A stretch of 35,277 bases of DNA, taken from Candidatus Omnitrophota bacterium. GTDB taxonomy: Bacteria; Omnitrophota; Gorgyraeia; Tantalellales; Tantalellaceae. The position numbers were made by a program, and so were the translations under genes. The notes below the pieces were generated by a model. It did not search any database and had not been told where the DNA came from. It was given only the letters and a program-made list of their open reading frames with translations. Location: contig JADGBR010000035.1 in assembly GCA_015231405.1 (NCBI GenBank), forward strand, positions 1-35,277, given 5' to 3'. Shown here piece by piece: positions 4,006 to 34,673 of this stretch. Numbering within the stretch: the first letter of the stretch is position 1; each line of letters opens with the position of its first letter.

Positions 4006-4164
4006 CGTCATTGCGATGAGCAGGAGACGTCGTCATTGCGAGGAGAAAGAGACGTCGTCATTGCGAGGAGGCCCAGAGGCCGACGAAGCAATCCCTATAG
4101 AGATTGCTTCACCCCGCTTTCGCGGGGTTCGCAATGACGGAGAGACTCGAGCTCGCAATGACGG
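4006..4164. repeat. Cloverleaf repeat, copy 2 (three left, two right arms)
   Basis: Three left arms CGTCATTGCGA and two right arms TCGCAATGACG enclose the left hairpin GGCC-caga-GGCC, the central GAAGCAATC/GATTGCTTC pair and the right hairpin ACCCCGC-TTTC-GCGGGGT (4111-4128). An open frame runs through it into the CBS kinase, but that frame only translates the repeat. Confidence 0.9.
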
Positions 4165-17885: not shown

Positions 17886-18050
17886 CGTCATTGCGAGAAG
17901 GCCGGATGTCAGACCGTCATTGCGAGAAGGCTGAATGTGAGACCGTCATTGCGAGGAGGCCGAGAGGACGACGAAGCAATCTCTATAGGGATTGCTTCGG
18001 GCGCTATCGCGCCCTCGCAATGACGAACTGAGTGATGCGCGCAATGACGG
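17886..18050. repeat. Cloverleaf repeat, copy 4, inside the pst operon
   Basis: Three left arms CCGTCATTGCGAGAAGG with near-identical spacers and two right arms surround the central GAAGCAATC/GATTGCTTC pair and the right hairpin GGGCGC-TATC-GCGCCC. It lies between pstA and pstB. Confidence 0.9.
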
Positions 18051-19164: not shown

Positions 19165-19467
19165 GTGAAAATAAGTCCGTATTTCAGATGGAATAGCGAA
19201 AAGAATGAGCAGCTTAAAAGGACAAGGGTTGTCTGTTTTGAGCAGATAGTAATGGCGGTTGAGAAAGGCGGGATCTTGTCTATAACAAAACATCCTAATA
19301 CCGGTAGATACCCGAACCAGGAGATCATGTCAGTAGTTATGGATGAGTATGTCTTTATTGTTCCTTTTGTCAGGGAAGAAGACGGGACATTCTTTCTTAA
19401 AACTATTATTCCGAGTCGGAAGGCGACCAGGGGACATACGGGAGGGAATGATCATGAAACGATATAA
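19165..19467 (+). CDS. BrnT-like toxin (second module)
   Basis: This gene encodes 100 residues from GTG 19165. No ribosome binding site is visible and the predicted transcription start coincides with the codon, so it may be leaderless. The sequence fits a BrnT-related toxin family: FRWNSEKNEQLKRTRVVCFEQIV, then HPNTGRYPNQEIMSVVMDEYVFIVPFV and FLKTIIPSRKATR (quoted in parts). These correspond to the WxxxKN...H...IIS(x)RKA pattern of the RNase-fold toxins. It is clearly different from the brnT at 14062, so the two modules are not recent copies. The antitoxin gene starts inside its 3' end. Lower GC than the pst genes suggests transfer. Confidence 0.8.
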   Translation: MKISPYFRWNSEKNEQLKRTRVVCFEQIVMAVEKGGILSITKHPNTGRYPNQEIMSVVMDEYVFIVPFVREEDGTFFLKTIIPSRKATRGHTGGNDHETI

Positions 19468-19759
19468 ATTGGATAAATACGAAAATGAACTATTGGAGTC
19501 TGTTAATAGAGTGGAATGGAAGCCTGTAAAGAACATGAAACAGGAAATACGAAGGTTCCAGAAATATGCGAGGAATACGCTGAAAAAAGACAAACGGGTG
19601 AATATACGGATGTCGTCAAAGGATCTCGCGGAGATACAGATCGTCGCTGTAAAAGAAGGATTGCCATACCAATCATTAATGTCCAGCATACTGCATAAAT
19701 TTGTAAGAGCCTACTATTCTAAAAAGGCACGCCCGGTCGAGATCTTCTCTGATCTGTAA
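19454..19759 (+). CDS. CopG/ribbon-helix-helix antitoxin (second module)
   Basis: This gene encodes 101 residues from ATG 19454, with GGGAGGG 8 bases upstream; a longer in-frame start at 19343 lies inside the toxin gene and is rejected. The N-terminal half (KRYKLDKYENELLESVNRVEWKPV read in parts) is charged and probably binds the toxin. The C-terminal part RVNIRMSSKDLAEIQIVAVKEGLPYQSLMSSILHKFV (in parts) is a typical CopG-like ribbon-helix-helix domain of antitoxins paired with BrnT-like toxins. It should repress the shared promoter. A strong terminator follows the stop within a few bases, so the module is a closed transcription unit. Confidence 0.85.
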   Translation: MKRYKLDKYENELLESVNRVEWKPVKNMKQEIRRFQKYARNTLKKDKRVNIRMSSKDLAEIQIVAVKEGLPYQSLMSSILHKFVRAYYSKKARPVEIFSDL

Positions 19760-19923: not shown

Positions 19924-20054
19924 CGTCATTGCGGGGGGAGCGATGAAAGAGCGAACGACGAAGCAATCCCTGTATTAATAACAAGTTTTAGAGATTGCTT
20001 CGTCGCCTTCGGCTCCTCGCAATGACGGCGTCCTTTTCCCCCTCGCAATGACGG
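19924..20054. repeat. Cloverleaf repeat, copy 5 (inverted, with a loop insertion)
   Basis: One left arm and two right arms. The central GAAGCAATC and GATTGCTTC are separated by about 17 extra bases (GTATTAATAACAAGTTTTA region). The hairpin GCC-TTC-GGC is on the right side here, so the element is in reverse orientation. Confidence 0.85.
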
Positions 20055-20192: not shown

Positions 20193-20236
20193 AAGCTGAA
20201 AGCTGATAGCCGAGAGCTGAAAGCTGAAAGCGGAAA
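20193..20236. repeat. Short AGCTGAA-type tandem repeat in the kinase leader
   Basis: AAAGCTG and close variants (AGCTGAT, AGCCGAGAGCTG) repeat about five times just before the start codon at 20245. It is a low-complexity tandem of unit 7, possibly slippage-prone. Confidence 0.6.
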
Positions 20237-20244
20237 AAACACTT

Positions 20245-21264
20245 ATGACTGATTTCTGGAAAAATCAGATGGATTATGTTTTCTTTGTTTACGGGTTCGC
20301 TTTTATAGCGGTCGCCGCGGTGCTTTTAGGCAGAAAACGCGCGAAAGAAGGCGAACGGTTCGGGTGGAACTGGCTTCTCTGGTTCGGGTTATTGCACGGC
20401 GTTAATGAATGGATGGATATGTGGGCTATCGGGTTCGGGGATAGCGCGGCGTTCAAATGGGTCAGGTTATGGATAATGGCGGCGTCGTTCCTGGCGCTTT
20501 TCGAATTCGGCCGGCGGGGTTTGATCTCAGGCGGGCTTAAATGGCCGGGAGGATGGTTATACGCGATCGTGTTGCCCGCGGCGGCTATGGGTTATCTCTA
20601 CGGCCCGAACGGGCTTAACGCCTCGTTACGCTATTTTCTCGGGTTCACGGGGGCGTCGTTAACGGGGATGGTCTTTTTACGCGTTTCCGGACGGCAACCT
20701 GCCGAGAGAGGGATATTTCATACCTTAGCGGGAGCGGCGTTTCTCCTCTACGGCGCCTCGGCGGGGCTTATCGTTCCAGCCGCCGGTTTTTACCCGGCGA
20801 ATATCCTTAACCACGACGCTTTTTTTGCGGTTCTTGGTTTTCCGGTACAGGTGTTAAGGGCTTTATGCGCGGGTGTATCGGCTTTTTGCGTATGGGGAAT
20901 ATTCAGGGGAGAACCCCGAAAGGGGAACGAAGAGTCGCTATGGTTTAGAGCCTGGTTCCTTCCCGGCTGTATCGTGTCGGGTCTTATCTTTGGAGTATTC
21001 CTCGTCAACTGGCAGGGCAATATCGCGGATAAGGAACAGCGAGGCGAGATCTTATCGCAGGTAAGGGCCGTCGCCCGGACTATGAACGTCAAGGACATTA
21101 AGGCCCTCTCATTCACTCCTAGAGATAACAAGAACCCGTCTTTCCTCAGATTGAGGCAGCAATTGATATCTTATGGGAAAGCCATGAACTTAAGGAGCAT
21201 TTACTCCATGGCTCTCCGGGACGGGAAGATCGTTTTCGGACCCGAGAACATACCGGAGGGTTAG
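20245..21264 (+). CDS. N-terminal part of a split giant sensor kinase: multi-pass membrane domain and half a sensor
   Basis: This part is 339 residues from ATG 20245 to a TAG at 21262. Eight hydrophobic segments (from YVFFVYGFAFIAVAAVLL to CIVSGLIFGVFLVNW) make a multi-pass domain with WNWLLWFGLLHGVNEWMDMW in the second segment. From about residue 255 a helical extracytoplasmic segment leads into a Cache-like sensor (SIYSMALRDGKIVFGPENIPEG). The reading frame then meets TAG and continues in the same frame after one codon with [11 protein letters not shown]. In related kinases, from memory, FGPE...ASPPGTVYE is one uninterrupted stretch. The gene was therefore one reading frame of about 1624 codons broken by a single amber codon. 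It has a good promoter and no kinase domain of its own. Confidence 0.85.
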   Translation: MTDFWKNQMDYVFFVYGFAFIAVAAVLLGRKRAKEGERFGWNWLLWFGLLHGVNEWMDMWAIGFGDSAAFKWVRLWIMAASFLALFEFGRRGLISGGLKWPGGWLYAIVLPAAAMGYLYGPNGLNASLRYFLGFTGASLTGMVFLRVSGRQPAERGIFHTLAGAAFLLYGASAGLIVPAAGFYPANILNHDAFFAVLGFPVQVLRALCAGVSAFCVWGIFRGEPRKGNEESLWFRAWFLPGCIVSGLIFGVFLVNWQGNIADKEQRGEILSQVRAVARTMNVKDIKALSFTPRDNKNPSFLRLRQQLISYGKAMNLRSIYSMALRDGKIVFGPENIPEG

Positions 21265-21270
21265 GCTATG
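21255..21270 (+). promoter_or_regulatory. Shine-Dalgarno sequence at the split, allowing restart
   Basis: GGAGGG (21255-21260) lies just before the TAG stop and 7 bases before ATG 21268. The bases also encode the last residues (PEG) of the first part. Ribosomes ending at TAG could restart at once. Confidence 0.6.
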
Positions 21271-24200
21271 GCGTCTCCGCCCGGGACCGTTTACGAGGAA
21301 CCGCGTCCCGAGGACTTTAGCGCTTTCACTCATCCGCGGTCTTATACGGTAGGGCCGGTAAAGGACGAATACGGGACATTCGTTTCGGCAAGCGCGCCGG
21401 TTGTGGACGTGCGAACAGGAGAAGTACTTCTTCTCATCGCTATGGATATCGACGCCGCTGAGTTCATGAGAGTAATTTCTTCTGCCAGAATGAAGAGCAT
21501 CGGGACGACCTTTATACTCGCGATGATATTCCTCTCGGGTATAGGGCTCATCCGGTGGCGGGATGGTCTCTCCCGGGACCGGATGGAAAAGCTGAGGTAT
21601 ATCGAGGCGCTCACTGCCGGGATGTATCTTGGCGCGATATCGGTACTGGCGCTGGCCTATCTGTACCAGATCGAAACACGGAACATGCGGGATCTCTTCA
21701 AGGAAGTGGGAGAATCGCTTTCTTACAATGTCGTTTCGGAATTGAAAGAGGTGCGCGACAATGAGCTGGCAAGCCTCGCGGATTTTATCGCCGCGAACAA
21801 TGATCTGACGCTTGCCGGATTCGGAAATTTCGCGCGAAGCCAGGTCTCGGTAAGCCCGGCTAAAGCCTGGGTATGGGTGCCGGCTGTACCCGCTCTCGAA
21901 AAAGCGGCTTTCGAGGCCGGCGCGGCTAAGGAATGGTCGGGCGGTTATGAGATCTACGAACTGGATCCTTCCGGAGCCCGGGTAAAAGCAGGGGAGAGGC
22001 CGGTCTATTATCCAGTACTCTACGCCGAACCCGCCGGAGACAACAAAACGGCGCTGGGGTTCGACCTGGGTTCAGAGAAGTGTCGCGGGGAGGCTATGGA
22101 GGAAGCTCTGGCGACGGGACTACCGACAGCGACGGATCTTATCACTCCCGTACAGGAGAGCGGCAAAGAGGGATCAATACTCGTAATGAAGCCGGTTTTC
22201 AAGGCAGGTCCGCCCGGGCCGGAGAGCATAAGGGGTTTCGCCGTTCTTTTACTCAGCGTAAAAGACCTGCTGGATTTTATCCTTAACACTGCCAGCAACG
22301 ACGAAAAGGCCGATATTGTTGAAGAGATAACATTGTTCCAGCTGGAGGAAGACGGAAGGTATTCACTTATAGCGTCAGCAGGGAATAATGAAAAGACAGA
22401 GATCGGAGAAGACGGAAATGGGTTCGCCACAGCGCATGACGGATTGGACTATGTGGCTCCTTTACTCATATTTGGAAAAGCTTACGCCGTGGTCATCCAT
22501 CCATCCAGGGGAGCTGTGGCGGGGACTTACTGGGGGAATATCGTTTTTATTTCTCTATTGCTGGTCATTGTCACGCTGGTATTCACTGTGCTGGTATGGG
22601 CTCTTACCAGCCAGAAGGCTACCCTGGAAAAAAAGGTCAACGAAAGAACGGACGATCTCTATAGAAATACGCTCATCCTCGAGAGGGAAAGGGAGAACCT
22701 CCAGAAAATATTCGATTCGGCCCAGGTGGGTCTTCTTCTCGTCAATTCCAGGGGTGACGTGAAACGAGTTAACAGTATACTCGCTAAGATGGTACATGCG
22801 GGCGGGGAAGAAATGGTCGGCAAAAGACCCGGCGAGGCTCTATGCTGCGTGAATGCTATGACGAAAGAAAAACGTTGCGGTGAGACCGAAGAGTGTAATG
22901 CCTGCGCTATCCGGATGGTTCTTCTTGACATTCTGAACGGCAAAGCGTCCCAGGGACATCTGGAGATAGGTAAGGAGCTCTGGGTGATGGGAGAAAAAGC
23001 CGTCATCTGGCTCGATATCAATTTCAGCAGGATTGATGTGGAAGCCTCGGAGCATGTCCTCATATCCATGTTAGACGTGACCGAGAGAAAGCTTTTTGAG
23101 GATAAGCTTAAAGGATCGAAAGAGGAAGCCGAATCCGCTAACCGCGCTAAAAGCGAGTTCCTGGCCAATATGAGCCATGAGATACGCACCCCCATGAACG
23201 GTGTTATCGGCATGGCCGGACTTCTTTTGGATACGACCCTGGACGACGAGCAGAGGAAATACGCGGATGTAATTCGTTCGAGCGGAGAGATGCTCCTGGG
23301 ACTTATAAACGATATACTCGATTTCTCCAAGATGGAAGCCGGCAAGATCGAATTCGAGGACCTGAATTTCGATCTCAGGAGCATGCTGGACGACATGATG
23401 GATATGCTCGCCGTCCGGGCCAGGGAAAGATCGAACGAGATCACACTTATGGTCGCCCCGGAAGTCCCGGGCCTTTTGACCGGCGATCCGGGCCGCTTAA
23501 GGCAGATCCTTATCAATCTCGCGGGTAACGCCTTAAAGTTCACCGCTAAAGGCGAGGTCGCGATCAAGGTGTCGCTGGAAGAGGAAGGGGATATGAGCGC
23601 GAGGCTTAACTTCGCCGTAACGGATACGGGCGTGGGGATACCCAAAGACAAGATAGGGCTACTTTTTAAGTCCTTTCAGCAGGTGGACGCTTCTGTCACG
23701 CGCAAATACGGCGGGACCGGGCTCGGGCTGGCCATCTCAAAAAAACTGGTCGAGATGATGGGCGGAAAGATCGGGGTCGAGAGCGAGGAGGGGAAAGGAA
23801 GCACGTTCTTCTTTTCGGCCAATTTCGAGAAATGGGAAAGGACCGCCGGGAAGGATAAAGGCCATCTCGCCGATATCGGCGGGACGAGAATCCTCGCCGT
23901 CGACGACAATAAGAATACCAGGATGCTCCTGGCCGCGCTCGTAAAGAAGAACGGGGCTATAGTCGGTGAGGCCGCGGACGGCAGGAAGGCCGTCGATGCG
24001 CTCATCGAGGCCGCGAAAAATGGGGAACCGTATAAGATCGCGGTAATGGATATGATGATGCCGGGAATTTCCGGAGAAGAAACGGCGAGGCTCATAAAGT
24101 CCGATTTCCGGATCAAAGACACGATACTTATAATGCTGACGGCGTTCGGTCAGCGAGGAGACGCCAAAAGGTTCCATGAAGCCGGTTTCAGCGGATACCT

Positions 24201-25119
24201 TATTAAGCCGGTAAGAGAGGAAAGGCTCATTAACTGCATATCCCTGGCTCTGGGGAGGAAAGCTTTCGCGGCGGACGGCCTGACCCGGACGGCCGGGATA
24301 ATAACCGCGCATACGGTAAACGAAGCGCGTAAGGACAATGTCAGGATACTGGTCGTCGACGATAATAAGACCAACCAGGACGTGGCTTTAGGCATGCTCG
24401 CCAAGCTTGGATACCGCGCCGATCCCGCGTCGGACGGGTCGGACGCCCTTGGCATGGTTAAAGCGGTCCCTTACGATATAGTCCTCATGGATTGTCAGAT
24501 GCCCGTAATGGACGGGTTCACGGCTACGAAAGAGATCAGGAAGCTGGGCGGCGCCCGAATGAACGTGCCGATCGTGGCGATGACGGCGCATGCGATGACC
24601 GGCGACCGCGAAAAATGTCTGGCGTCGGGGATGGATGATTACATTTCTAAACCCGTATCCCCGTCGGAGCTGGTTAGGGTGCTGAATAAATATCTCGTTA
24701 AAAAAGAGGGGAAGCCTGAACCTGACCGGGCCGCAGCTGTGGAAGCAATAAAGCCCGGGGAAGCACCCGAACGGGCCGTTACCGGCGTGTTCGACCGTGC
24801 GGCGTTCATGGAACGCATGATGGGCGACGAATCGCTCGCCAAAATGATAGTCGAAGGTTTTATCGGGGATATACCGGGCGAAATACGGACTCTGCGTGAA
24901 TACGTCGATAAAGGAGATACGGGTAACGCCGGTGCGAGAGCGCATAAGATAAAAGGAGCGTCAGCTAACATGGCCGGCGAGGGGCTCCGCGAGACGGCGC
25001 ACAATATGGAGATAGCCGGCAAGTCCCAGGACGCGGCTAAACTTAAGGAACTGATGCCGAGGCTCGAGGAGGAGTTCGAAAAAATGAGAATTGAGCTTTC
25101 GCGGGCGTTCGGGGTTTAG
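21268..25119 (+). CDS. C-terminal part of the split sensor: CHASE-PAS-hybrid histidine kinase with two receivers and Hpt
   Basis: This is a 1283-residue protein from ATG 21268, in the same frame as the gene before it. Order: second half of the first sensor (1-75), two membrane segments (about 78-96 and 114-134), a CHASE-type extracytoplasmic domain (about 150-410, with WVWVPAVP and YYPVLYAEP), a membrane segment (421-446), a coiled coil, and a PAS domain (about 475-610) with five cysteines from C526 to C546. The kinase follows: H637 in [12 protein letters not shown]750/N754, DTGVGIP and GGTGLGLAI. Receiver 1 has D928, receiver 2 has D1075, and Hpt has H1226 ([10 protein letters not shown]). 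All phosphorelay residues are present, so the cytoplasmic half appears active. It is closely similar to the kinase at 27552. Confidence 0.9.
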
Positions 25120-25131
25120 CGGGTAGTTGTA

Positions 25132-25378
25132 GTCATTGCGAAGGAGTCTCGCGACGTCGTCATTGCGAAGAGTCCCGCGACGCCGTCATTGCGAGGAGTC
25201 CCGCGACGCCGTCATTGCGAGGAGGCCAGTGGCCGACGAAGCAATCCCTATAGAGATTGCTTCGCTTCGCTCGCAATGACGGAGCATATACGGCTCGCAA
25301 TGACGGAGCATATACGGCTCGCAATGACGGGGCATACAGGGTTCGCAAGGACGGAGCATATACGGTTCGCAATGACGG
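25132..25378. repeat. Cloverleaf repeat, copy 6, largest, with a 24-base tandem array
   Basis: Four left arms (GTCATTGCGA) and five right arms (CGCAATGACGG). The right arms with the spacer AGCATATACGGCT form a 24-base unit repeated about four and a half times from 25272. The centre has GAAGCAATC/GATTGCTTC and the left hairpin GGCCA-g-TGGCC. Confidence 0.9.
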
Positions 25379-25411: not shown

Positions 25412-27397
25412 ATGATCAAACGGACTTCCGGGAGACTGGGCGTGTTCCTTCTGATACTCACGATAGGGCTTGTCATATCCCTTGTCGCAGCGGCGGCAAT
25501 ACACCGGAAAGTGGAAGAGCGCCTCCGGAACGATTTCGATATGTATTCTTCCGAACGCGCGGAAGCTATCATGAACACTCTGGGGTCCGACATAGATGTA
25601 TTGAGGAGCATAGGCGCTTTATACGCGAGTTCCGAGAGTGTGGATAGGAAAGAGTTCCATACGTTCGCGAACATCCTCCTGGGTTTTAATCCAGAAATAT
25701 TCCAGTTCAGGCGGCTGGAAAGGGTAAAGGCCGGGGATAAAGAAGAGTTCGAAAGAAAAATTTCCTTGGATCTGGGCGGCGCTTTCACGATCAAGGATAA
25801 CTCGTCCAGCGGAAAAATGACCGGTGCCGGACGGCGCGACGAATATTACCCGGTCGTTTACGTCGAACCGGATACTACTCAGGGTGAAGAATTAGGCTTG
25901 GACGCCTCGGGTATCCCCGAAAGATGGGAATGCTTGAAAAAGGCCCGCGACACTGGAGAACCGGTTATCTCCAGGGATCTACCCGTAGGCGCCGTCGAGG
26001 GAGTAAAAAGGGCTACAAGGGTTTTCCTCCCCATTTACGCGAATGGCAAACCCGCGGGCACAGTTGAGGAAAGAAAGGCCGGTATCGCCGGGTTCGCGGT
26101 AATGCTTTTCGATATGGGACATCTGGTCGAAAGGGCTTTGAAGAATATCGTTTCCCGCGGGGTAGACGTTTACCTTTATGATCTCTCTGCCCCGGCGGGA
26201 CAGAAACTCCAGTATTGTCACTTGTCCAGGAAGAGGACCAGTTCGGAGGAACCCAGATACGGGGAAGATCAGCTGGATTCGCCGAAAGGGCTTTTTTGGC
26301 GTACTGACCGCGCGATAGCCAACGCTAAAATAGCGATAGTATGCCGTCCAAACCGGGCCTTTTACGGGAAGTACGACAAATTATTCCCGTGGCTGGTTTT
26401 CGCCTCAGGGATCGGATTGACCCTGATCGTGAGTCTTTACATAGAGATGCTTTACAGAGGGAAGAGTATAGCCATTCGAGAAGTATCAAGAAAAAATATG
26501 GAGCTCAAAACGAGCGAAGAGAGGTACAAGGGTATTGTGGACAGCCAGAGCGAACTCGTCACCAGATTTTTGCCTGACGGGACTTTTACGTTCGTGAACA
26601 AAGCTTGCGTGAGATTTTTCGGTAAGTCCGAAGAGCAGCTTTTAGGCGGCAAGTTCATGCCGTTTATCGTTGCCGCGGATATACCCCGCGTCATGGCGCT
26701 AGTCGGAACTTTATCGCCGTCGAAGAACGACGAGATTCTCGAAATTCGCGTGTATGACGGCGATGGGGTGATAAGGTGGCTGCAGTTAACGTTCAGAGCT
26801 TTTTTCTCAGAGGCCGGAACTCTCGAGGATATACAGGGGGTTGGGCGCGATATCACCGATAGGATGAGAGCCGAAGAGGCTCATCGTGAAAGCGAGAGAA
26901 AATACAAGGCCATTATCGATAACACGGCCGATCTGATAATTATGATGAGGCTCGACGGGATCATAACGTTCCTTTCTCCGGCATGCGAAAAAGTAACCGG
27001 TTATCCGCCCGGGGCGCTTATGGGTAAGAGTATTTTTTCGATATGCGCCGACGACCCCGTGAAGGTCCGGCAAAAGTTCTCGGAATGCCTGGAAAGCGGC
27101 GACAGGGCGGATATCGAATTCCGTGTATTGACGGGTGAAGGAAGGACGAAATGGGTGTCACAGTCGATATCGGCGGTTACGGAGGGCGGGAAAATCGTCT
27201 TCGTCTCGAGCGTGGTCAGGGACATAACGGCGCGGAAAGAATTGGAAGACGTGACGGCGACGAGGTTGAGGGATATGGAAAAGTTCACGAAGTATACGAT
27301 AGGCCGGGAGAAGGACATTATCAGGCTGAAGGAAGAGGTCAACGCGATCCTGACGAAAGCCGGCGAGCCGGAAAAGTATTTAAAGGGTACTCTGTGA
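25412..27397 (+). CDS. CHASE-PAS-PAS sensor protein without a kinase domain
   Basis: This is a 661-residue protein from ATG 25412, with AAAAGGA before it. A membrane segment (about 10-30) is followed by an extracytoplasmic CHASE domain (about 50-310; LGFNPEIFQFRRLERV, EYYPVVYVEP, ELGLDASG) and a second membrane segment (326-347). Two PAS domains follow (about 370-488 and 495-615), each ending in DIT. The C-terminus is a short helix, YTIGREKDIIRLKEEVNAIL, then GEPEKY. No histidine-kinase, cyclase or receiver domain follows. I recall this ending from many PAS proteins that also lack a kinase, so it is probably complete rather than truncated. It may act as an auxiliary sensor for the hybrid kinases on either side. 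Confidence 0.85.
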   Translation: MIKRTSGRLGVFLLILTIGLVISLVAAAAIHRKVEERLRNDFDMYSSERAEAIMNTLGSDIDVLRSIGALYASSESVDRKEFHTFANILLGFNPEIFQFRRLERVKAGDKEEFERKISLDLGGAFTIKDNSSSGKMTGAGRRDEYYPVVYVEPDTTQGEELGLDASGIPERWECLKKARDTGEPVISRDLPVGAVEGVKRATRVFLPIYANGKPAGTVEERKAGIAGFAVMLFDMGHLVERALKNIVSRGVDVYLYDLSAPAGQKLQYCHLSRKRTSSEEPRYGEDQLDSPKGLFWRTDRAIANAKIAIVCRPNRAFYGKYDKLFPWLVFASGIGLTLIVSLYIEMLYRGKSIAIREVSRKNMELKTSEERYKGIVDSQSELVTRFLPDGTFTFVNKACVRFFGKSEEQLLGGKFMPFIVAADIPRVMALVGTLSPSKNDEILEIRVYDGDGVIRWLQLTFRAFFSEAGTLEDIQGVGRDITDRMRAEEAHRESERKYKAIIDNTADLIIMMRLDGIITFLSPACEKVTGYPPGALMGKSIFSICADDPVKVRQKFSECLESGDRADIEFRVLTGEGRTKWVSQSISAVTEGGKIVFVSSVVRDITARKELEDVTATRLRDMEKFTKYTIGREKDIIRLKEEVNAILTKAGEPEKYLKGTL

Positions 27398-27444: not shown

Positions 27445-27524
27445 CATCATTGCGAGCGAAGCGAAGCAATCTCTATCTCTAAACGGATTGCTTCGCCGCC
27501 CTCAGGGTCTCGTCGAAATGACGG
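27445..27524. repeat. Cloverleaf repeat, copy 7 (single, diverged right arm)
   Basis: The left arm CATCATTGCGAGCG and the central GAAGCAATC/GATTGCTTC pair are clear, but the right arm is altered (CGTCGAAATGACGG). It lies between the CHASE-PAS-PAS gene and the next kinase. Confidence 0.8.
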
Positions 27525-27551: not shown

Positions 27552-30500
27552 ATGAGAATATCGCGAAAGTTAGCCATAGGGTTTGCCCTGGTCGGAGCGG
27601 CTGCGGGGTTGTTCGGCTATATTTCAGCCCAGGCTTTCAGGGTTATCTCCATGTCGGTCGATAGAGAGATCAGGACCGGGGTCGACGGGATAGCCGCGGC
27701 GGGGCATCTCCGGGACCTTGCCGATTCCATCCGCTACTACGACGAAGTGCTGACGCAGTCCGCCCGCAATTATGCGTTCACCGGGAACACGCGGTGGCGC
27801 GACAGGTATAAGCAGTTCGAGCCGGAGCTCGATAAGGCCATCAAAGAGGCTATAGAAAAAGGTGACGCTCTGGATAAAGAGATCTTCGCTCGGGTGAACG
27901 CGGCCAATACGGCCCTTGTCGAAATGGAGTACCGCGCTATCGGACTCGCGGACAATGGAGCGTTCGACGAAGCCGCCTCGACACTCGAGAGCGCCGGGTA
28001 CCTTAGAGAAAAAGCGGTATATTCCGACGGGCTTAACCGGTATTTCGCCAGAAAATCCGGCGACAATCTCACCACCATAGATAAGGGAAGGGATAAGGCG
28101 GACATGATATCCGCGAAACTCCTTAGGGTTGTAAAGGATAACGAACGCGGGGCTTTCTTGATGGTATCGATCGTCGCGCTCCTCGCGATCGTCGGGTGGG
28201 TATTTTTATCGCGGCGTATATCGTTGGCGGTATCCCGGCTCTCCGTGGCGCTAAAGGCGGCCGGGGAGGGCAGGTGGGATAAAGAGGTCGAAATATCCTC
28301 CGACGACGAGATAGGCGAACTCGCCGTGGCTTTCAATAAAATGATAGCGAGTCTCAGGCAGTCGGAAATATCTATGGAACGGCTGAACAAGGAGATCATC
28401 GAAAGGAATCGCCTGGAAATTGTCCACAGGAAGGCGTCGGCCGAATGGGAAGCCATATTCGATTCCATAAAGAACATGATATCCGTACAGAGTATCGACC
28501 ATACCATCCTCAGGGTAAATAAGGCGTACGCCGAAGCCATAGGAAAAACAAAGGAAGAGATAGTCGGCAGGAAATGTCATGAGGTCATACACGGCGGCGC
28601 TGCCGAGTCGTTCGTTTGCCCGCAGAAGATCGCGGTCGACGGAAAAAAGCCGGGTTTAGCTGAATTCTTTGAGCCCAGGTTCGGGATATTCGCTGAAGTG
28701 ACCGTTATTCCCATATTGGACGATGCCGGGAACGCGAGCGGGATCATCCATGTGATAAGGGATATAACCGCCAGGAAAAAATCGGAGGAAGATCTTAAAC
28801 GGGTGAATGAGGAGCAGAAAGAACTCCTTCACATTTCCGAATCGCTGAGAGAGGATATGTACGAGGCGCAGGTGAAGGCCGAAGGGGCGGCGCGCGCCAA
28901 GGGTGAGTTCCTCGCGAATATGAGCCACGAGATACGGACGCCTATGAACGGCGTAATAGGTATGGCCGGGCTTATCCTGGATACCGAGCTTGAACCCGAG
29001 CAGAGGAAATACGCCGAGGTCATCCGATCGAGCGGCGAGATGCTACTGGGCCTCATCAATGATATCCTTGATTTTTCCAAGATGGAGGCCGGCAGGCTCG
29101 AGTTCGAGACGATGGATTTCGATCTCCGGAGCATGATGGACGATACGATGGATATGCTGGCGGTGAAAGCTCACGCGAAAGGGCTCGAGCTCATACCCCT
29201 TATCGACCCGGCGGTGCCGTCGCTATTAAGGGGCGACCCGGGGAGGCTCCGGCAGGTCGTTATCAACCTGGTCGGGAACTCGGTTAAATTCACTGAGTCG
29301 GGAGAGGTGGTCATCGTCGTATCTCTCGAGAAAGAGGATCCAGAGAAGGCTTTCGTGAAATTTTCCGTGAAAGATACCGGGATAGGCATACCGGCGGATA
29401 AGACGGGGGAACTGTTCAGATCGTTCCAGCAGGTCGACGCGTCAACTACCAGGAGATTCGGGGGAACGGGCCTCGGGCTCGCGATATCGCAGAGGATAGT
29501 CTCGAAGATGGGCGGCTTGATCGAGGTCGAAAGCGAGGAAGGTAAAGGGAGCGATTTTTTCTTCACTGTCGCTTTCGATAAACAGAAAGATCCTGTCGAG
29601 AAGGCGGCGGAAATACCGGCGGACATAAAAGGGTTCCGCGTTCTTATCGTGGACGACAACGCGAACAACCGTTTTCTCTTAAGAACATTACTGACCAAAT
29701 GGGGCATGCGGTGGGGAGAGGTCTCGAGCGGTACGGAAGCGGTAGGAGCCATCGTTGATGCCGCCGGCGCGAAAGACCCCTACAAGGTGGTCTTAATGGA
29801 CATGAACATGCCGTATATGGACGGAGAGACGACCGGAAGGCGATTGAGGAAAAGCCCCCAGGGTGAAGATATCCTGCTCATAATGATAACATCGCTCGGC
29901 CAGCGCGGGGACGGTAAGAAATTCGAGGAAGCCGGTTTTAACGGGTATCTCATCAAGCCCGTCAGGGAGGACAGGCTATTCGAATGCCTGTCGATGGCGC
30001 TCGGGAGGCGGATCCTTTCGGAAAAAGGGATCAAAGCGCCGGGAGGGATAATAACCACGCATACGATCACGGAAGCCAGGAAGGAACGCGCTCGGATACT
30101 CGTGGTAGAGGACAATAAGACAAACCAGGAAGTGGCCTCAGGCATAATTAACAAGATGGGATACCGCACCGACGTCGCCTCGAACGGCGAGGAAGCGATA
30201 AAAATGTTAAAGCTCATGCACTATGATCTTATTTTTATGGATTGCCAGATGCCCGTCATGGACGGGCTAACGGCGACGCGGAATATCCGGAACCTGGAAA
30301 ATGAGAAAAAGAATGTCCCGATAGCCGCAATGACGGCGCATGCAATGCCGGGGGATAAAGAGAACTGCCTTCAGGCGGGCATGGACGATTATATCTCTAA
30401 ACCGATCTCGCCGGCGGAGATCCAGAGGGTGATAAAAAGGTTCCTTTCGGAAAAAGTGACGCTGAAGGCGGGTCCGCCAGGGAATATCATTAAAAAAGAG

Positions 30501-30869: not shown

Positions 30870-31041
30870 CATCGTTGCGAGGATCGAAGAGACGCCGTCA
30901 TTGCGAGGAGCGAGTGCAGCTTCGCCCGTCATTGCGAGGAGCGAGTGCCGCTTCGCTCGTCATTGCGAGGAGGCCCGAAGGCCGACGAAGCAATCTATAT
31001 AGAGATTGCTTCACCCCGCTTTCGCGGGGTTCGCAATGACG
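30870..31041. repeat. Cloverleaf repeat, copy 8 (four left arms, one right)
   Basis: Left arms repeat with a unit of about 32 bases (GTCATTGCGAGGAGCGAGTG, then CMGCTTCGC). The left hairpin is GGCC-CGAA-GGCC, the centre is the usual pair and the right hairpin is ACCCCGC-TTTC-GCGGGGT. A CCATAGTCCATGG heptamer stretch follows at about 31048-31068. Confidence 0.9.
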
Positions 31042-34591: not shown

Positions 34592-34673
34592 CGCCATTGC
34601 GAGGAGGCCGAAGGCCACCGAAGTAATCTCTATGTAGATTGCTTCGGGCGCTCGAGCGCCCTCGCAATGACGG
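34592..34673. repeat. Cloverleaf repeat, copy 10 (single)
   Basis: One left arm GCCATTGCGAGGAGG, left hairpin GGCC-GAA-GGCC, centre AAGTAATCTC/GATTGCTTC and right hairpin GGGCGCTC-GAGCGCCC, which is a perfect palindrome. Confidence 0.9.

Follow-up and report, generated by a model that had tools for sequence, protein, structure and literature searches.

The interrupted gene

The window studied here, which is the whole stretch of DNA analysed, is one complete contig of 35,277 nucleotides (nt) (JADGBR010000035.1; G000:C28:1-35277, G000 being the window's own genome) from a 93-contig draft assembly of a Candidatus Omnitrophota bacterium (GCA_015231405.1). At positions 20245-25119 of its forward strand lies a long receptor gene with 1,624 codons before the final stop at 25117-25119, and the only internal stop in this span is a TAG at 21262-21264. 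An earlier reading of the DNA, made from the letters and hereafter called the sequence-only reading, described a giant sensor kinase split by this one TAG with a restart site at the break, and named a nonsense mutation, an assembly error or a receptor of two polypeptides as the options. The coordinates bear out its description of the locus: ATG 20245, TAG 21262-21264, GCT 21265-21267 and ATG 21268-21270 share one frame, which is otherwise open to its end; stop and second ATG are 3 nt apart, with GCT as the single sense codon between them; and the codons preceding the TAG form GGAGGG at 21255-21260, resembling a Shine-Dalgarno (SD) sequence and placed 7 bases from ATG 21268, a good position for restart. 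The features of the gene are as follows.

20245-21264, + strand: N-terminal part of the receptor gene, 339 residues; multi-helix module (about residues 1-222), membrane helix, first half of a Cache/PDC domain to residue 339, end at TAG
21255-21260, + strand: GGAGGG, Shine-Dalgarno-like, built from the codons before TAG
21262-21264, + strand: in-frame TAG, the sole stop within 1,624 codons
21268-21270, + strand: ATG, possible restart; Met also in 4/59 unbroken homologues
21268-25119, + strand: C-terminal part, 1,283 residues; second half of the Cache/PDC domain, two membrane-helix-like peaks, CHASE, a third peak, PAS-like region, HisKA, HATPase_c, two receivers, HPt
21814-22305, + strand: CHASE domain (Pfam), residues 183-346 of the C-terminal part

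Both parts look coding by their third-position GC (0.63 and 0.64), and most neighbouring genes have similar values.

A receptor cut inside its Cache domain

In the downstream part, CHASE, HisKA, HATPase_c, two receivers and HPt follow in one frame, each over its Pfam cut-off, and the PAS-like region was assigned by eye; against the upstream part, no Pfam family matches at E≤0.001. Residues 1-480 were modelled by AlphaFold2 from an alignment with 16 homologues, with Q in place of the TAG (mean predicted local distance difference test score 85.4). The model consists of helices as far as about residue 220, then of one long helix (229-279), a Cache/PDC-like domain with strands at 318-325, 328-334, 367-374, 377-387 and 394-403, and another long helix from 404; on our reading of this model, the front membrane module would have seven helices. 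When the model is compared with solved structures by Foldseek, Cache sensors rank first (Campylobacter Tlp3, E 2.0e-4), and the sensor domains of KinD and CitA appear lower down with E above 0.001. Template modelling scores by query length are low, 0.15-0.34 among the 50 matches listed, as would be expected where one domain of the 480-residue model matches. The gene encodes a one-chain receptor with a multi-helix membrane module, a Cache domain, CHASE, a PAS-like region and a hybrid histidine kinase that has two receivers and HPt.

Where does the stop fall in this receptor? In the model, it is residue 340, in a loop (335-354) between strand 328-334 and helix 355-362 of the Cache domain, which fits the claim of the sequence-only reading that the break lies inside the first extracytoplasmic sensor. 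Four of the 16 aligned homologues carry insertions of 3 to 5 residues in this loop; the SD-like stretch sits in a freely varying part of the Cache domain.

A separate observation concerns the PAS-like region, where a cysteine cluster, CC-x9-CG-x4-C-x2-C (window 22843-22905; residues 867-887 of the read-through frame), may bind a metal or cofactor; 5/59 homologues have a loose version of this motif.

Aligning relatives are unbroken at the site

With the window's own genome included, 51/285 genomes of a phylum sample match the upstream part and 45/384 genomes of a class sample match the start of the downstream part; in the family of the nearest homologue (G428), 16/32 genomes match residues 1-480. 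The upstream part is found in 0/18 genomes of the same family as the window's genome, so the gene is isolated in its own family, where the beginning of the downstream part is weakly matched by one genome, G290 (E 3.6e-5); a same-genus label was on no genome among 59 relatives. Queried with the N-terminal part alone, a collection of genome contigs and one of phages each returned nothing, and a named collection yielded 111 relatives among 154 candidate stretches, 80 of them kept.

The homologue count itself covers 111 loci (L064-L079, L095-L174 and L176-L190) and leaves out other loci from the phylum, same-family and G428-family searches. A single frame is open across the site in 83/111 loci, representing 59 distinct genes, and most of these align with no gap at the stop; such unbroken homologues are what the sequence-only reading had suggested looking for. 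Pairwise alignments of these 59 genes place a sense residue in the column of the stop in 57 cases and a gap in two. The other 28 loci do not align at the site: 26 reach residue 298 at most, L181 starts at 346, and L142, the one inspected at sequence level, has a run of N. No stop at this site was seen among the 111 loci. Frames that span the site are open by definition, and a search that reads through and counts stops is therefore a fairer check: there, 19/32 rows cover residues 325-356 and none has a stop in that interval.

Since the single open frame of the homologues matches both sides of the break, the two parts are one gene, and two adjacent frames that match one unbroken homologue on both sides are the hallmark of an interrupted coding sequence. 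The nearest homologue, G428, is 50% identical over residues 1-477; its single open frame, 1,597 codons long, encodes CHASE, PAS, HisKA, HATPase_c and one receiver. A Riflebacteria gene (L096) has CHASE, HisKA, HATPase_c, two receivers and HPt, the output order of the present gene, and the same front precedes GGDEF-EAL in L097 and L098. More broadly, the front with CHASE stands before varied outputs in L095-L098 and L185 (histidine kinase, hybrid kinase, GGDEF-EAL).

Some relatives may be broken elsewhere. L142 was considered as a second split homologue, with residues 1-309 and 343-467 in two frames, and was rejected and not counted because of the N run between its parts; in the read-through search, G449:C161 has frames of the same two lengths. 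At G181:C29:14412-15283, a front-module homologue is in two pieces, the first (residues 5-89) with an in-frame TAA and the second covering 75-230. A TGA stands in the match row of G133:C2 (residues 11-99), away from the present site, and a weak match in G135:C33 has a TAA located after that site. These last three cases hint that relatives can be broken at other places.

How old is the stop? Compared with G428, the membrane module shows an identity of 0.49, and the Cache domain one of 0.64 before the stop and 0.69 after it; nine intact homologues are 0.33-0.77 identical among themselves over the same three stretches, and on both sides of the stop the identity to homologues is in the usual range. 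The sequence-only reading held that a split receptor would be contradicted by homologues in which the stop is always absent while this copy has decayed further. The absence holds in this sample (0/111), and the decay does not, there being no second stop or frameshift in the 1,624-codon frame. To judge from the alignments, intact flanks fit a young, a false or a tolerated stop alike and cannot separate the three.

The restart site and its base rate

Is a restart site this well placed a coincidence? GGAGG 4-9 bases ahead of ATG is not rare as such, with 9 matches on both strands of the window against 8.4 expected. Among the possible nonsense sites of this frame, an in-frame ATG with an SD match of at least 5 bases lies within -24 to +33 bases at 39/525 sites and within a tight window of -9 to +12 at 18/525, the present site being included in both counts; in 15 other genes of the window, the corresponding numbers are 84/2,581 and 33/2,581. 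A restart this good is thus a 1-7% coincidence for a random stop, which is suggestive and not proof; the finding was selected because of its restart site.

Met occupies the column of ATG 21268 in 4/59 unbroken homologues, and G428 has TTG there; a start codon with an SD match of at least 5 bases near the site occurs in 0/59, and a match of 4 in 1/59. Because relatives share the Met position and the SD-like stretch lies in a varying loop, the restart site was probably not built for splitting.

Could ribosomes nevertheless use it? A stop and a start within about 20 nt, together with an SD-like sequence, are what termination-reinitiation calls for, and the locus offers 3 nt and GGAGG, with the host anti-SD unconfirmed: the anti-SD pattern gives 5 matches in the window's own genome against 3 for a control, and the sole exact match lies outside any Rfam family at gathering score. 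An SD match of at least 5 bases precedes 8/21 of the window starts examined, ATG 21268 included, and the predicted RNA folding of 21215-21304 is unremarkable (z 0.75). In three E. coli gene pairs, coupled reinitiation was reduced by 5, 20 and 70% at a stop-to-start distance of +2 nt (PMC10666635); coupling that persists at +2 nt makes restart at +3 nt plausible. The conserved arrangement expected of an established termination-reinitiation pair was seen in none of the 111 loci.

TAG as a stop codon

TAG ends 10/23 other listed open reading frames (ORFs) of the window, this gene's own end included, in agreement with the sequence-only reading, which took TAG for a normal stop of neighbouring genes and recoding for unlikely. 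A scan for tRNAs gave 46 matches, of which 45 were assigned an anticodon and one partial match was not called by ARAGORN; CTA is the anticodon of 0 of the 45. No PylS exceeds its cut-off in this genome (best 22.7 bits against 178.15), whereas the Methanosarcina control does. The genome contains prfA sequence of the release factor 1 (RF1) type, of which the beginning and the part bearing GGQ can be read on either side of a stretch of N; its best score, 417.4 against a cut-off of 423.25 bits, falls short because part of the gene reads N. Matches over the prfA cut-off were obtained in 34/39 genomes searched, the present genome being among the 39 and not among the 34. A broken RF1 gene, in two pieces in different frames that were both under the cut-off, was considered and dropped since the fetched stretch partly reads N. 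Stops are absent from the 41 HATPase_c and 59 receiver matches of this genome. Recoding of UAG was rejected as the cause of the interruption: with TAG a common normal stop, no CTA among the called anticodons, no PylS over its cut-off, an RF1-type sequence and no stop in 100 domain matches, it appears unlikely from the genome's content.

A probable young nonsense codon and its rivals

We favour, at a probability of about 0.6, a normal one-chain receptor that has acquired one nonsense codon, either recently or as a variant within the population, and we infer that the stop is real in the organism. One survey describes in-frame stops as widespread in bacterial genes and as tending to short persistence, on the scale of polymorphism (PMC7918605). 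On this reading, ribosomes would end at the TAG and some may restart at ATG 21268, 3 bases on, guided by GGAGGG. The likely product of such a restart would be a hybrid kinase that keeps CHASE but has lost the front module, together with half of the Cache sensor, and is blind to the signals sensed by that module. By hydropathy, the C-terminal part has membrane-like peaks at residues 77-95 and 112-132, ahead of CHASE; use of the first would require the N-terminal tail to be outside, and the second could by itself anchor CHASE outside.

Several points weigh against a young nonsense codon. Chance is a somewhat unlikely source of so good a restart, whose SD-like part is shared by 0/59 relatives; the homologue count takes genes that align across the site, so that part of its outcome follows from how it was made; the first part shows no decay, and at 50% identity to relatives a young lesion could not show any; and a real mutation is not separable from a base-call error given an assembly and relatives from other genera. 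An error of base calling or of the assembly consensus, with the gene unbroken in the organism, ranks second, though we consider it unlikely. It would explain why the stop is in no relative and why no decay is seen, and in a re-sequencing study of one older genome, sequencing errors lay behind 28/73 interrupted genes (PMC1852416); those errors were over- and undercalls, and the program used there could not show miscalls, so the precedent bears loosely on a substitution. What speaks against an error is that assembled contigs rarely contain single-base substitution errors and that 100 checked domain matches of this genome contain no stop. Far less credible than either is that the TAG is read through, by a suppressor tRNA, pyrrolysine or natural leakiness, and a full-length receptor made; the frame past the TAG is intact, and many bacterial genes with in-frame stops have been argued, in the same survey, not to be pseudogenes and possibly to be read through (PMC7918605), but the tRNA set, the PylS score, the RF1-type sequence and the ordinary use of TAG as a stop speak against recoding here.

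There remains the third option of the sequence-only reading, a two-polypeptide receptor made by termination-reinitiation; here this would mean N- and C-terminal chains in a fixed ratio, with the Cache domain put together from both. In its evolutionary form, one codon change in the Cache loop together with a co-located, evolved start would have made the receptor two-chain, with termination-reinitiation controlling both ligand sensing and how much front module is made per kinase. In its favour, GGAGGG lies 7 bases from the ATG, the 3 bases between TAG and ATG are close to distances at which coupling has been measured, both parts are intact, and the break is in a loop that takes insertions of 3 to 5 residues in 4/16 homologues; the absence of an SD match of at least 5 bases with a start from all 59 homologues would mean that the pair arose in this lineage. 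Against this stand the 83 aligning loci, all open, with no relative seen split here; the position of the break within a fold, not between domains; Met at the ATG in 4/59 relatives; and a restart within reach of chance. Moreover, hydropathy shows no membrane-like peak among the first 76 residues of the C-terminal chain, and these residues would need to cross the membrane. A sensor assembled from two chains is thus not supported; an evolved two-chain receptor is possible and, in our estimate, improbable, less likely than a base-call error.

Comparison with known systems

The gene resembles single-nonsense interrupted coding sequences, or young pseudogenes, in belonging to a known family, having one in-frame stop and intact homologues, and continuing to read after the stop; it differs in that an SD-like sequence and an ATG lie right at the stop, so that the C-terminal part may still be made. 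With termination-reinitiation coupled pairs, it shares a stop and start close together, here 3 bases apart, and an SD-like sequence inside the first frame; the pairs in the study cited above mostly have overlaps of 4 bases or 1, and subunits of complexes are over-represented among them (PMC10666635), whereas the present pieces are halves of one gene in relatives. Among CHASE-type hybrid histidine kinases with a multi-helix/Cache front, it is a match in that its front corresponds to unbroken homologues in Omnitrophota and other phyla, and it stands apart in being broken inside the Cache domain. In M. tuberculosis, Rv0600c/Rv0601c reportedly form a histidine kinase split over two adjacent genes with its catalytic parts separated; here, by contrast, the break spares the kinase and divides the sensor. 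A search of the literature, limited in extent, found nothing on a nonsense codon with restart in sensor kinases, and we know of no membrane sensor domain whose two chains derive from one gene through a single step.

Surroundings

The start ATG 20245 stands directly behind a short repeat and has no SD-like match of at least 4 bases. A second repeat, GTCATTGCGAGGAG, occurs on both strands in clusters that for the most part avoid the listed genes (at no more than 2 mismatches, 26 matches against 0.27 expected), with lone matches at 27509 and 33394.

20194-20238, + strand: AGCTGAA-type 7-bp repeat, directly upstream of ATG 20245; 5 overlapping matches (at most 3 mismatches) against 0.13 expected
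1946-2072, 4007-4070, 17887-18024, 19925-20052, 25159-25328, 30897-30972 and 34593-34671, both strands: GTCATTGCGAGGAG clusters, by pattern search

Just upstream of the receptor gene, window 19165-19759 holds ORFs of low G+C (0.41-0.42) that are BrnT-like and CopG-like, their matches staying below the Pfam cut-offs. Downstream, 25412-27397 encodes a CHASE-PAS-PAS protein in which no kinase domain was found; a hybrid kinase follows after 154 bases, at 27552. Elsewhere in the same genome (G000:C2:22183-25350), a 6,804-codon open frame holds two HATPase_c matches and is possibly a giant protein.

What the interruption means

If the case is ordinary, as we favour, it illustrates that one stop codon in a draft assembly can give the look of a gene split by design, and that the base rate of chance SD-ATG pairs needs to be taken into account. 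Were the split true, it would be a membrane sensor domain made from two chains, born of one gene in one step.

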